This document shows, piece by piece, positions 1,926-45,545 of a stretch of DNA of 64,000 bases (position 1 is its first letter; each line of letters begins with the position of its first letter). The position numbers and the translations under genes are program-made. The stretch is from Reichenbachiella sp. (GTDB taxonomy: Bacteria > Bacteroidota > Bacteroidia > Cytophagales > Cyclobacteriaceae). The notes under the pieces are model-generated. The model saw only the letters and a program-made list of their open reading frames with translations, was not told the DNA's origin and did not search any database. The stretch is taken from contig NZ_JAWPMM010000001.1 in NCBI RefSeq assembly GCF_033344935.1, positions 4,243,501-4,307,500 on the forward strand, written 5' to 3'.

Positions 1926-2597
1926 TCACAGTCCCCCCTCATCCATCTTAATTTTCATCAATACAGAAAAGGCGTCATTAATGTTCTTTTGCTCCACTAC
2001 TATGGAAAACTCGTTGGAGGTAGAAATCACCTCTATTACCGTAATACCGTACCAGGCAATCATTTTAAATATGTAGTAATAAAGACCGTATGCTCTAATA
2101 TTTGAAGCCTTGAGCATCACTGTAGCTGAACTGAGCTGGCTATTACCGGTGACATAAGTCTCCTTTTCAAATATCCTTTTCACCCGATCTACAATATTCT
2201 CACTCACGATTAACGTTCGTTCGTACATCCCCTGAGTAAAGGAGCAATAAGTATCCGGTAGGTTTTGAACTTCATGAAGTAGACGGGTCTGGTTTTCTGT
2301 CAACGTTGGCGAATTCGCATAGGTAAATGTAGACAGACCAGATCTCACGAAAATATCCCCAATATGCTCACGGAAGTTCTTTGGATTTAAATTGAGTGCA
2401 TTGGCTCCCATAGTAGAGCGACGTTTGAGTGCCATTAGAATCGAAGCTTCCGTAGCATCTTTCATCAATACCTTAGACACATAGGGCTGCAGCAGCCTCG
2501 CAAGCGACGAATAATTAATCAAATTGGCCATCATGGCCTCCTCAATAAATGGCATCTTTCTGATTCCCTCTTCTACAATATCCGATATCTTCTTCAT
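1926..2597 (-). CDS. Hypothetical protein with ACT-like C-terminus
   Basis: A 223-residue soluble protein without signal peptide or membrane segment. The N-terminal half is helical, with a basic segment near residue 60 (ALKRRS). The last ~60 residues (around YYYIFKMIAWYGITVIEVIS, then FSIVVEQKNINDAFSVL) have the beta-alpha-beta-beta spacing of ACT domains, as in aspartate kinase regulatory regions. It is transcribed away from lysA with about 110 bases between the starts. ACT domains often bind amino acids, so a role sensing lysine or another amino acid next to lysA is plausible but inferred. I do not recognise a characterised family. Confidence 0.65.
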   Translation of the reverse strand: MKKISDIVEEGIRKMPFIEEAMMANLINYSSLARLLQPYVSKVLMKDATEASILMALKRRSTMGANALNLNPKNFREHIGDIFVRSGLSTFTYANSPTLTENQTRLLHEVQNLPDTYCSFTQGMYERTLIVSENIVDRVKRIFEKETYVTGNSQLSSATVMLKASNIRAYGLYYYIFKMIAWYGITVIEVISTSNEFSIVVEQKNINDAFSVLMKIKMDEGGL

Positions 2598-2672
2598 GTC
2601 GTTAAATATTTAACAAAGTGCAAATATTATGAATAATTCTAACATTTATTTCACATGACCTCACTTAAAAAA

Positions 2673-2680
2673 TACTTTTG
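2673..2680 (+). promoter_or_regulatory. Bacteroidota -7 box (TACTTTTG) before lysA
   Basis: Exact match to TAnnTTTG. Transcription would begin about 2684-2687, leaving a short leader before ATG 2709 and making the TTG at 2697 an unlikely start. Confidence 0.6.
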
Positions 2681-2708
2681 AATTCTGAATTTAAAATTGA
2701 AACCAAAG

Positions 2709-3884
2709 ATGTCGGTAAGAACACCATTTTATTACTACGATTTGACGCTGCTGGAAAACACGTTAGCTGCTATGCAAGCAGCAATCAACAATCCCAATTT
2801 TAAAGTACACTATGCGATTAAAGCTAATGCCGAAGATCGTATCCTTCAAACCATTAAAAAACATGGACTTGGAGCGGATTGTGTCAGTGGCAATGAAATT
2901 AAAAAAGCGATCGAAATTGGTTTCGAACCAAATGATATTGTCTTAGCAGGAATCGGTAAATCCGACGAAGAGCTAGATTTAGCCATTTCACAAGGTATTC
3001 ATAGTATCAACTGTGAATCGATAGAAGAACTCGAAGTGATCAATGAAATAGCAGAAAGACATGGAGCGGTGGCAAGTATTGCATTTAGAATCAACCCTAA
3101 TGTTGATGCACAGACCCATCATAAAATTACTACGGGACTGAATGAAAACAAATTCGGCATTCCTATTACGGAGTTGGACGCGGCGGTAGATGAAATATTG
3201 AAACACAAAAACCTCGCGTTAAAGGGCATACATTTTCATATTGGCTCACAGATTTTGAATCTAAACCCCTTTGCCAACCTATGTCAGCAGGCCAATAACG
3301 TGATTGCTAGCCTCAAGGCGCGAGGTATTGTTCTAGAACATATCAACGTTGGTGGAGGATTAGGTATTAACTATACCGATCCAGAATCTCAACTGATTCC
3401 AAATTTTATTGAATACTTTAGAGTATTTGAAAAATTCTTGAATCTCGAAGAAGGTCAAACCGTTCATTTTGAATTAGGCAGATCAATCGTAGGCCAGTGT
3501 GGTTCTCTGATATCCAAAGTATTGTATGTGAAAAAAGGAGTGAGTTCAAACTTTGCAATTCTGGATGCAGGCATGACCGATTTGATGAGACCAGCTTTAT
3601 ACAATGCTTTTCACAAAGTAGAGAATATTTCTAAAGAAGGTGAATTGGAGCCTTATCATGTAGTAGGGCCGATCTGTGAAAGCTCTGACACTTTTGGCAA
3701 AACAGAATTACCTAAAACTCATCGCGGAGATTTTCTAAAGATCCGGTCTGCAGGCGCCTACGGGCAGGTTTTAAGCTCGAATTACAACTTAAGAGATCGA
3801 GCAGCTGCCGTTTACTCAGATGAGATCTTACTTGAAGAATACATTTCTAATAACGAAAAAATAGAAGAGCTACAGGTCGTTTAA
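2709..3884 (+). CDS. lysA: Diaminopimelate decarboxylase
   Basis: A PLP enzyme (391 residues from this start) that decarboxylates meso-diaminopimelate to L-lysine, the last step of lysine synthesis, in the cytoplasm. Fold type III alanine-racemase-like features are visible: the PLP lysine in VHYAIKAN near the N-terminus, GIHFHIGSQI, the phosphate-binding VGGGLGI, the ELGRSIVG strand, and the C-terminal GPICESSDTFG with active-site Cys and the following AGAYG. ATG 2709 was chosen over TTG 2697 because a -7 box lies only 17 bases before the TTG and homologues begin near the TPFYYYD motif. A strong terminator follows, so it is probably monocistronic. Confidence 0.95.
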   Translation: MSVRTPFYYYDLTLLENTLAAMQAAINNPNFKVHYAIKANAEDRILQTIKKHGLGADCVSGNEIKKAIEIGFEPNDIVLAGIGKSDEELDLAISQGIHSINCESIEELEVINEIAERHGAVASIAFRINPNVDAQTHHKITTGLNENKFGIPITELDAAVDEILKHKNLALKGIHFHIGSQILNLNPFANLCQQANNVIASLKARGIVLEHINVGGGLGINYTDPESQLIPNFIEYFRVFEKFLNLEEGQTVHFELGRSIVGQCGSLISKVLYVKKGVSSNFAILDAGMTDLMRPALYNAFHKVENISKEGELEPYHVVGPICESSDTFGKTELPKTHRGDFLKIRSAGAYGQVLSSNYNLRDRAAAVYSDEILLEEYISNNEKIEELQVV

Positions 3885-44343: not shown

Positions 44344-44808
44344 TTATCCAAGTTGAATCGGGCGACTCATACTCTCATCCAAAGAAATAAATGTCTCAGT
44401 TCGATCGATGCCATCCACCTTCTGAATCTTGTCATGCAACACTTCTCTCAAATGATTAGTGTCTCTACAATGAATTTTGATGAAAATGTTATAATTACCT
44501 GTGGTATAATGAATCTTCACTATTTCAGGTATCTCCCTTAATTTATCTACCACTGTATCATAGAGTGAACTCTTCTGCAAATAAATCCCTAAGAAGCAAG
44601 TTACATCAAAGCCTAGTTTAGAGTAATCCAACTGTAAGGTTGTTCCTTTTACTACACCGAGCTCTTCCATTTTTTTCATGCGTACATGGACTGTACCGCC
44701 AGATACGTAAACCTTCTTTGCAATTTCAGTATAAGGTGTCTTTGCATCCAACATGAGGTGGGAAAGAATCTTCAAATCCACATCATCAATTTCATAATTT
44801 TTCGGCAT
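44344..44808 (-). CDS. Lrp/AsnC-family transcriptional regulator
   Basis: A 154-residue regulator. The N-terminal winged helix spans IDDVDLKILSHLMLDAKTPY, EIAKKVYVSGGTVHVRMKKM, and the C-terminal RAM effector domain follows (FLGIYLQKSSLYDTVVDKL, TTGNYNIFIKIHCRDTN). Members bind amino acids as octamers. It lies directly upstream of the tRNA-like tandem, transcribed away from it. No target is evident from its position. Confidence 0.92.
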   Translation of the reverse strand: MPKNYEIDDVDLKILSHLMLDAKTPYTEIAKKVYVSGGTVHVRMKKMEELGVVKGTTLQLDYSKLGFDVTCFLGIYLQKSSLYDTVVDKLREIPEIVKIHYTTGNYNIFIKIHCRDTNHLREVLHDKIQKVDGIDRTETFISLDESMSRPIQLG

Positions 44809-44917
44809 GATTCAATACTGATTTTATTAATTATTCAACAATATTAATAATATATTAAATGATATGTAAATATTTTGCCATTTTTATATGATATTTTTAA
44901 TATATCAGGGCTTTTCT

Positions 44918-44925
44918 TAATTTTA
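44918..44925 (+). promoter_or_regulatory. Near -7 box (TAATTTTA) for tRNA-like copy 1
   Basis: Seven of eight to TAnnTTTG and located at exactly the same place relative to the repeat as the perfect box of copy 2 (2 bases before TTATCAAAAC). Confidence 0.45.
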
Positions 44926-44966: not shown

Positions 44967-45078
44967 TGTAGGGTGATGAAACAGGCAGCCATGCCCTCCT
45001 ATCTCGGGGGTGGAGATTCGGGATAAATCGCTCCTTGCGACTAACTGCTCCGTGGAGGTTCGAATCCTTCTCCTACAG
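44967..45078 (+). ncRNA. tRNA-like RNA with oversized variable arm, copy 1
   Basis: About 112 nt with a tRNA outline. Acceptor stem TGTAGGG / TCCTACA (7 bp, one G-T) and discriminator G; U8-like TG; D stem ATG/CAT with an 11-base Leu-type loop containing GG; anticodon-like stem CCCTC/GGGGG with loop CTATCTC; variable region of 43 nt; T arm GGAGG TTCGAAT CCTTC. The variable region forms GGAG/CTCC and an inner hairpin TCGC/GCGA. No CCA is encoded. The loop gives triplet ATC at the anticodon position, with T37 instead of a purine. It is not a normal isotype; a specialised, non-decoding or regulatory tRNA-like RNA is possible. Confidence 0.7.
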
Positions 45079-45112
45079 CTATCATTTTTGGGTTAATGTT
45101 GTTTAATGAAAG

Positions 45113-45136
45113 AGTCTGGTTTTTCCAGACTTTTTT
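45113..45136 (+). terminator. Terminator of tRNA-like copy 1
   Basis: AGTCTGG / CCAGACT with T5 loop, followed by a T run; 34 bases after the discriminator base. Confidence 0.85.
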
Positions 45137-45327
45137 CATTTATGACCTTTTGGTCCTAAAAACCCTCATTACAACGCTCCTTATCGTTAACGATGTATAA
45201 TTCGCAATTTGAACACCCTAAACCAACACTCAATTACGATATTATCAATAAATGTAGCAACAAAATAAATGATATCTATTTATTCGCTCATTTTTATGAA
45301 ATATTTTCAACATTCAAGTGGTTTTAC

Positions 45328-45335
45328 TACCTTTG
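45328..45335 (+). promoter_or_regulatory. -7 box (TACCTTTG) for tRNA-like copy 2
   Basis: Exact TAnnTTTG, two bases before the conserved repeat begins. Confidence 0.6.
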
Positions 45336-45376
45336 AATTATCAAAACAAACGAAAAGACGTTCTTTTGTTTAATAC

Positions 45377-45488
45377 TGTAGGGTGATGAAACAGGCAGCC
45401 ATGCCCTCCTCTCTCGGGGGTGGGGATCTGGGACAAATCTCAACTTGAGACTAACCTCTCCGTGAAGGTTCGAATCCTTCTCCTACAG
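45377..45488 (+). ncRNA. tRNA-like RNA with oversized variable arm, copy 2
   Basis: Same fold as copy 1. The anticodon-like loop is CTCTCTC, giving CTC at the triplet position (ATC in copy 1). T stem GAAGG/CCTTC is fully Watson-Crick where copy 1 has a G-T pair. In the variable arm the inner stem is TCTC/GAGA instead of TCGC/GCGA, a compensatory G-C to T-A change, and the outer helix GGGGA/TCTCC keeps pairing. These changes mean the RNA structure, including the extra arm, is under selection. Confidence 0.7.
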
Positions 45489-45522
45489 CTATCATTTTTG
45501 GGTTAATGTTGTTTAATGAAAG

Positions 45523-45545
45523 AGTCTGGTTTACCAGACTTTTTT
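45523..45545 (+). terminator. Terminator of tRNA-like copy 2
   Basis: AGTCTGG / CCAGACT with TTTA loop and T5 tail. Confidence 0.85.

Follow-up and report, generated by a model that had tools for sequence, protein, structure and literature searches.

Non-proteogenic tRNAs, such as the staphylococcal tRNA-Gly used for peptidoglycan bridges, are known, and to our knowledge none of them serves the synthesis of its amino acid itself. A tRNA-like part is also present in YrlA (bacterial Y RNAs) and in tmRNA. Asparagine is made in a tRNA-dependent manner in Deinococcus, Thermus, Staphylococcus aureus and Bdellovibrio, where, according to the passages of PMC4206432 on these bacteria, a non-discriminating aspartyl-tRNA synthetase (AspRS) and GatCAB act on tRNA-Asn.

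Here we describe a tRNA-like RNA encoded twice in 64,000 nucleotides of Reichenbachiella sp. DNA (contig NZ_JAWPMM010000001.1, positions 4,243,501 to 4,307,500), a stretch called the window below. Its likeness to the tRNA-dependent route, which the same passages propose for genomes short of AsnA and AsnB, would lie in charging by AspRS followed by U1-A72-dependent amidation by GatCAB (PMC4206432). The difference is that the amino acid would be carried by an RNA of its own, with an Asp-type loop and not expected to decode, and a discriminating AspRS would then be enough. With staphylococcal tRNA-Gly it would share the use of a tRNA out of translation as amino-acid carrier, whereas loop, acceptor pair and arm differ. 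tRNA-Leu resembles it in the D arm, with CAG after GG, and in the long variable region, but the RNA differs by G73 in place of A73, by its Asp-type loop and by a variable region of 39-131 nt with an inner hairpin. Unlike YrlA and tmRNA, the whole RNA is a tRNA fold with normal ends.

The tandem copies and their RNA family

Both copies are 113 nt long and lie in tandem on the plus strand, copy 1 at 44967..45079 and copy 2 at 45377..45489. They score 126.7 and 125.7 bits with the model R1, which was built from 37 sequences including these two, and are its only matches in the window at E <= 1; copy 1 is also a blastn match to the family. A preliminary description of this DNA had reported two tRNA-shaped copies, and these are real; its span of 44967-45488 holds for both copies except that the preferred acceptor register puts the end of copy 2 at 45489. 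The acceptor stem reads TGTAGGG/TCCTACA, with U1-A72, discriminator G73 and one encoded C74, and a single C74 after G73 is also encoded in the host tRNA-Asp and tRNA-Asn genes. Both copies have a Leu-like D arm and the T loop TTCGAAT. The anticodon-like loop is CTATCTC in copy 1 and CTCTCTC in copy 2, position 34 being A and C, respectively, and both have T at 33 and U at 37.

The variable region is 43 nt long and is composed of a GGRG/CYCC stem, a GGAYAAA/CTAAC internal loop and a hairpin, in agreement with the oversized, structured arm noted before. The arm of copy 1 (45012..45051, plus strand) has the stem GGAG/CTCC, the internal loop GGATAAA/CTAAC and the hairpin TCGC/GCGA, and that of copy 2 (45422..45461, plus strand) is supported in the same way, by the covariation of helices 4-6 in 98 distinct rows of homologues. 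The inner hairpin of copy 2 is TCTC/GAGA, so that the G-C to T-A double change between the copies that had been pointed out is indeed seen.

Each copy is followed by a conserved 3' tail, TTTTTGGGTTAATGTTGTTTA (45085..45105 and again 45495-45515, plus strand), located between the RNA and its putative terminator, an inverted repeat with a T run (45113..45136 for copy 1 and 45523..45545 for copy 2, both assigned to the plus strand, the scan listing the repeats in the minus orientation only). Among the homologues, a TTTTTGGGTTAATGTTGTTTA-type tail follows 38 of 205 last copies and none of 50 copies with another copy next to them.

Judged by record names, the RNA is a conserved, covarying family present across several orders. 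By blastn, matches were found in 44 of 59 genomes, its own included, and homologues with covariation, as the preliminary description had hoped for, are at hand. Genomes were counted as carrying the RNA (RNA-positive) at an R1 score of at least 66 bits, a line set after the scores were seen, and 27 of 149 genomes of the class reached it. Among 395 genomes of the phylum, matches at this score fell into families f1, f11, f13, f22, f23 and f26 inside the class and f66 outside it. The carriers named among the matches listed include Chitinophaga, Dyadobacter, Spirosoma, Pedobacter, Algoriphagus, Cyclobacterium and Echinicola, together with Saprospiraceae MAGs and one Ignavibacteriales MAG. The R1 searches of genomes were run with stricter filters, which may miss weak long members. 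The R1 matches at or below 62 bits, among those listed, are 79-93 nt long and look like ordinary long-arm tRNAs, and the tRNA-Leu(GAG) of the Reichenbachiella genome itself (G000) scores 58.2 bits. The one exception, of 177 nt and 55.9 bits (G355:C1:197363-197539), is a real member in a genome that also has a better one, and absence of the RNA as judged by R1 can therefore be wrong.

In an alignment of 98 distinct homologous rows, 95.6% of the cells pair, compared to 84.9% in shuffles. Double changes occur at 20 of the 30 pairs (shuffled mean 13.0) and in 342 cells (92 in shuffles), and all seven helices are represented among them. The alignment was fitted to the model and leans toward the structure; with slid partners, 52-58% pair. 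Folding of single sequences revealed no special stability for the two window copies (z 0.05 and -0.56). Selection on structure, previously proposed from the two copies, is thus supported by covariation across the homologues and not by single-sequence folding.

At its gathering thresholds, Rfam 15 gave no match in the window, to YrlA, tmRNA or any other family, and a scan of 20 homologous loci gave none either; ARAGORN called neither a tRNA nor a tmRNA in the window. At a lenient threshold ten weak Rfam matches appeared in the window (best E 0.14), tRNA-Sec being among them with 15.4 bits. The match to an ordinary tRNA family that had been named as a counter-argument was not obtained at the curated cut-off, as RF00005 gave 23.3 bits (E 0.041) with copy 1, below the curated 29, and did not list copy 2. 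The family is a distant relative of tRNA. A mobile-element origin was considered and found no match in plasmid and phage collections. A search of one open-access literature library did not find an earlier description of the RNA.

Among the matches listed, 257 unique copies were collected with a finder that allows limited changes from the consensus and therefore misses very diverged copies. As 133 of them occur only in loci retrieved by a motif search that fixes GTCTC and GGCAG, loop positions were counted on the other 124 copies (123 with a readable loop), gathered without a loop motif. Copy lengths range from 109 to 211 nt, with a single copy of 77 nt, and the variable region measures 39-131 nt in 255 of 256 copies listed and 7 nt in one. 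It is built of a 4-bp covarying stem, then a conserved asymmetric internal loop GGAUAAA/CUAAC, whose CUAAC is found in 221 of the 257 copies listed, and then a hairpin of very varied length. Many members of the Chitinophaga, Spirosoma and Dyadobacter type have an extra domain inside the hairpin, with GGGTTGACCAC or a close variant, as seen in the long members at L107, L111, L114, L115, L117, L119, L122, L124 and L125. The 77-nt member (L136, 538-614, minus strand; genome G048) has lost the long arm and G34 (A34), and its genome has AsnA; two species of the same genus keep a 116-nt form with C34 (L101, L102). More than one copy is present in 72 of 221 fetched loci, which overlap in part.

Conserved nucleotides and genomic neighbourhood

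The tertiary set of tRNA, U8-A14, A15-U48, G18G19 and T54T55C56-A58, is present in the family. Among the 257 copies listed, T8, A14 and A15 are each found in 252, GG[CT]A in 255, T48 in 239, and T54, T55, C56 and A58 in all, although the patterns of the finder are biased toward these letters and the GGCAG-fixing search contributed 133 of the copies.

The anticodon-like arm consists of a 5-bp stem and a 7-nt loop. In the copies gathered without a loop motif, positions 34-36 are NUC in 123 of 123 and GUC in 112, position 34 being other than G in the remaining 11; U35, C36 and C38 are each found in 123 of 123 and G73 in 124 of 124. In the same copies the first acceptor pair is U1-A72 in 124 of 124 (also in 98 of 98 alignment rows and in 255 of 257 of the larger set of copies listed) and the second is G2-C71 in 123 of 124. 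In the identity sets given in a 2023 review of tRNA identity (PMC9976931), G73, G34, U35, C36 and C38 are the five strong determinants for aspartate. U1-A72 is the pair that lets GatCAB amidate Asp-tRNA-Asn, while G1-C72 and U20a block this on tRNA-Asp, as stated in parts of PMC9976931 and PMC4206432. All 37 aligned rows of the RNA have A at position 20a, U20a being absent, and neither the G1-C72 nor the G10 of bacterial tRNA-Asp is kept (G10 in 7 of 98 rows). In the host, tRNA-Asp has the loop CTGTCAC and G1-C72, whereas tRNA-Asn and tRNA-Gln have U1-A72. Read in this way, the RNA combines an anticodon loop of the Asp type with the acceptor end that GatCAB requires, and does so on a tRNA-shaped body unlikely to decode. 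Charging by AspRS should be weakened by the A34 and C34 of the two window copies.

Decoding by the RNA is unlikely on these sequences: U33 (98 of 123 copies) is not a family rule, the purine 37 of decoding tRNAs has given way to a pyrimidine in 119 of 123, and the variable region reaches 39-131 nt. A host decoding set was found that includes a separate tRNA-Asp(GUC), tRNA-Leu with four anticodons, tRNA-Ser with three and tRNA-Tyr, in a first look that scored 150 of 354 candidates. The own genome also contains a second tRNA-Ser(GCT)-like sequence (L097, 169-259, minus strand; tRNA score 19.4 bits), which ARAGORN reports and which is possibly a decayed or foreign tRNA. The earlier view that no standard isotype fits is upheld. 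Charging with Leu, Ser, Gln or Glu was set aside on the identity positions listed in the part of PMC9976931 that treats them. For tRNA-Leu, A73 is absent, G73 being found in 124 of 124 copies. The RNA has the U1-A72, G2-C71 and G73 of glutamine identity in common, but G36 is needed according to the same part (PMC9976931), and 14 of the 27 RNA-positive genomes have no GlnRS over the cut-off.

Upstream of copy 1 and divergent from it lies a gene for a regulator of the Lrp/AsnC family (44344..44808, minus strand). Its protein scores 175.6 bits with the NCBIfam model AsnC NF008384, the best of ten, and 55.2 bits with Lrp NF008370, and contains Pfam domains of the AsnC_trans_reg and HTH_AsnC type; as the AsnC score is below the cut-off of 227, we name it AsnC-like only. 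Of the 143 loci for which 900 nt or more of upstream sequence was available, counted after dropping loci that share an identical copy, 106 have a divergent AsnC-like gene upstream of the RNA, 122 to 245 nt away from it (tblastn ends). By clustering without a flank filter, an asnC cluster was seen at 126 of 190 loci.

A AAATATTT box precedes both copy 1 (44868..44875) and copy 2 (45299..45306), no strand being assigned to either, and its enrichment in relatives suggests a possible AsnC operator. Within 200 nt upstream it occurs in 54 of 106 asnC-linked and 16 of 37 unlinked loci, against 9.7 and 3.6 expected. The TAnnTTTG motif, the consensus of the Bacteroidota promoter -7 element, was found in 67 of the 106 linked and 30 of the 37 unlinked loci when the 90 nt upstream were considered, compared with 9.7 and 2.8 expected; for the motif enrichments, upstream regions identical in their last 60 nt were dropped. 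Copy 2 has a putative -7 element of this type, TACCTTTG (45328..45335, plus strand), and by its position and by analogy a weak -7 like element, TAATTTTA (44918..44925, plus strand), may serve copy 1. In Escherichia coli, AsnC responds to asparagine and controls asnA, with which asnC forms a divergent pair; by analogy, this role fits a regulation of the RNA by the AsnC-like gene. The idea that the RNA had taken the slot of asnA beside asnC was not supported, as no asnC was found in eight asnA stretches from seven genomes (G048, G060, G550, G293, G402 twice, G406 and G285).

The other large neighbour clusters at the 190 loci are a fadD-like gene (31), sufB (27) and trmB (14), each identified from one member. 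In its 14 loci trmB lies downstream in the same direction, for instance at L147 (3391-4095, plus strand; protein 230 bits). TrmB is the tRNA m7G46 methyltransferase, and position 46 falls in the variable region.

Co-occurrence with GatB, GlnRS and asparagine synthetases

If the RNA is a substrate of GatCAB, the enzyme is expected to accompany it also in genomes that offer GatCAB no other known use. The same 149 class genomes were scored for the RNA, GatB, GlnRS, AsnRS, AsnB and AsnA, genomes not among the listed matches being counted as absent. GatB was over its cut-off in all 27 RNA-positive genomes. Among the 53 genomes with GlnRS it was found in 13 of 13 RNA-positive but in 4 of 40 RNA-negative genomes (Fisher p 3e-9, phylogeny ignored). 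Of the 96 genomes without GlnRS, 92 have GatB and only 14 the RNA, so that GatB often occurs without the RNA where GatCAB is expected for Gln-tRNA. AsnRS is over the cut-off in 144 of the 149 genomes and has a strong score in all 13 GlnRS- and RNA-positive ones, which leaves GatCAB without an evident decoding task there.

The tie also holds within three GlnRS-positive families. In f74, G450 and G522 have both the RNA and GatB, whereas G550 has neither and has AsnA. In f22, both are present in G137 and G156 and absent from G060 and G179, which have an E. coli-type AsnB, G060 also having AsnA. In f23, both are present in G065 and G091 and absent from G075, which also lacks AsnA and the E. coli-type AsnB.

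The four GlnRS-positive genomes with GatB but without the RNA all belong to family f84. One of them, G460, encodes a fusion of GatB and AspRS of 1106 aa (L325, 3804-7124, plus strand; GatB at residues 16-475, AspRS at 518-1105) next to a GatA-like gene (2407-3804; 433 bits with the GatA model, cut-off 481). The GatB of the other three lies in open frames of 1109-1114 aa, and these genomes probably have the same fusion. Family f84 seems to have another way of making asparagine on tRNA, and this is in line with a GatCAB that serves asparagine.

One AspRS per genome was over the cut-off in the 30 genomes looked at. At the discrimination site the Asp/Asn enzyme of Pseudomonas aeruginosa has His and the AspRS of E. 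coli has Leu, a residue that we take to mark non-discriminating and discriminating AspRS, respectively. His was found in 0 of 20 RNA-positive and 0 of 10 RNA-negative genomes, and is present in the fused AspRS of G460. Genomes without GatCAB should need a discriminating AspRS, and at this one residue the AspRS of RNA-positive genomes resemble theirs and are presumably of the discriminating type as well.

E. coli-type AsnB was searched with a query that scores 848 bits to PDB 1ct9, matches being counted at E <= 1e-100. It was found in 0 of 27 RNA-positive and 21 of 122 RNA-negative genomes, and AsnA in 1 of 27 and 6 of 122, the one RNA-positive genome being G048, that of the 77-nt RNA. Among the GlnRS-positive genomes, AsnA or E. 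coli-type AsnB was found in 0 of 13 RNA-positive and 19 of 40 RNA-negative ones (p 0.002, Fisher, phylogeny ignored), whereas the difference is weak when all 149 genomes are taken together (1 of 27 versus 23 of 122, p 0.08). A total of 17 of the 40 RNA-negative GlnRS-positive genomes have neither GatB, AsnA nor E. coli-type AsnB, and the lack of these genes is therefore no proof of a need for the RNA.

A TIGR01536 protein over the cut-off, judged from the best E, is present in 26 of 27 RNA-positive genomes, and those inspected have open frames of 571-722 aa. These proteins could be working asparagine synthetases, or not: AsnB of Bacillus subtilis is of this kind, and the best AsnB-like protein of G000 scores 200 bits with a hydroxyamidotransferase (PDB 7ylz) and 177 bits with AsnB. 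The remaining RNA-positive genome, G450, has neither AsnA nor a TIGR01536 match over the cut-off. In GapMind (PMC7311316), Echinicola vietnamensis and a Pedobacter strain are listed among the bacteria able to make all 20 amino acids; the RNA was found in other Echinicola and Pedobacter species than those two strains (L179, L172, L184 and L212).

A possible route to asparagine and its alternatives

The conserved family and its structure, the identity nucleotides, the AsnC-like neighbour and the tie to GatB make it likely that the RNA is tRNA-like, does not decode and is linked in its function to GatCAB and to aspartate or asparagine. That its job is the synthesis of asparagine, by AspRS charging and GatCAB amidation, is, in our view, slightly more probable than not. 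For the complete scheme, in which the RNA would be a cofactor outside translation, working with a discriminating AspRS and GatCAB, with release of asparagine and AsnC-type feedback, and would replace asparagine synthetase in part of the Bacteroidota, the chances appear about even. Among the options of the preliminary description, a specialised tRNA, a mimic or an RNA handled by aminoacyl-tRNA enzymes, the handling by such enzymes is probably right, and the earlier interpretation as a whole is supported in part.

The regulation, charging, amidation, release and ribosome exclusion that we infer would take the following course. The RNA would be transcribed from its own promoter under the control of the AsnC-like regulator, which probably senses asparagine, and would be processed and receive its CCA in the manner of a tRNA. 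The single discriminating AspRS would then load aspartate, reading U35, C36, C38, G73 and usually G34, and GatCAB would recognise U1-A72 and amidate Asp-RNA to Asn-RNA. In the least supported step, asparagine would be released to become free asparagine for AsnRS. This Asn-charged RNA with an Asp anticodon would be barred from translation, because neither U33 nor the purine at 37 is retained and because the variable arm is large. Against the asparagine reading speak the atypical A34 and C34 of the window copies, the missing G10 and G1-C72 of tRNA-Asp, the TIGR01536 proteins of 26 of the 27 RNA-positive genomes and the absence of asnC beside asnA in the seven genomes inspected.

A different explanation, which we regard as unlikely, is that GatCAB makes Asn-tRNA(Asn) with the help of a non-discriminating AspRS, the RNA being something separate, for example a regulator, that shares these lineages by chance. 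Such a route is proposed, in a passage of PMC4206432, for bacteria with AsnRS, GlnRS and GatCAB but without AsnA or AsnB, Bacteroidetes included, and the host tRNA-Asn does have the U1-A72 pair. However, the AspRS of genomes with and without the RNA are alike at the discrimination site, His being found in 0 of 30, as far as one residue can tell. Moreover, the RNA and GatB are absent together within three families, and this explanation gives no account of why the RNA has the marks of AspRS and GatCAB recognition.

It is quite unlikely that the RNA is charged and amidated as proposed but that its Asn-RNA or Asp-RNA donates the amino acid to the modification of a lipid, peptide or protein. Non-proteogenic tRNAs that donate amino acids exist, no enzyme releasing asparagine from the RNA was identified, and the AsnB-like proteins of 26 of the 27 RNA-positive genomes would agree with such a donor; yet the largest neighbour clusters (asnC, fadD-like, sufB and trmB) include no recognisable aminoacyl-transferase, and the AsnC-like regulator and the pattern of AsnA and AsnB point to asparagine itself.

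A regulatory mimic, that is, a decoy or sensor whose charging state would report the supply of aspartate or asparagine to AspRS, GatCAB or the AsnC-like regulator, is distinctly improbable. It would suit a stand-alone gene next to a regulator, with a non-decoding loop, a long arm of variable size and often several copies, but it fails to explain why, among GlnRS-positive genomes, GatB is kept almost only together with the RNA.

Charging with serine, for which the long variable arm and G73 would be the marks read by SerRS, is very improbable. Of the bacterial serine determinants listed in PMC9976931, the RNA has G73, G2-C71 and the large variable region. Nevertheless, the C72 and C11-G24 of that set are replaced by U1-A72 (124 of 124 copies) and U11-A24 (84 of 98 rows). 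SerRS does not read the anticodon, and the fixed NUCNC loop would therefore be left unexplained by serine charging. An unusual tRNA decoding Asp codons or a tRNA pseudogene is highly improbable in spite of the GUC anticodon of most members and the tRNA tertiary signatures, given the inconstant U33, the pyrimidine 37 and the existence of an own tRNA-Asp on the one hand, and the enriched promoter elements and the covariation on the other.

The asparagine reading, if true, would account for the retention of GatCAB in Bacteroidota that already possess GlnRS and AsnRS, and would offer a source of asparagine in a genome like G450, in which no synthetase is recognised. A conserved and often multicopy RNA may be going unannotated in these genomes, as it has no Rfam match and ARAGORN is silent on the window copies. 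Judged by the conserved marks, an RNA set aside for amino acid synthesis may be maintained in these bacteria, and its gene would, if this is true, be dedicated to the production of an amino acid.
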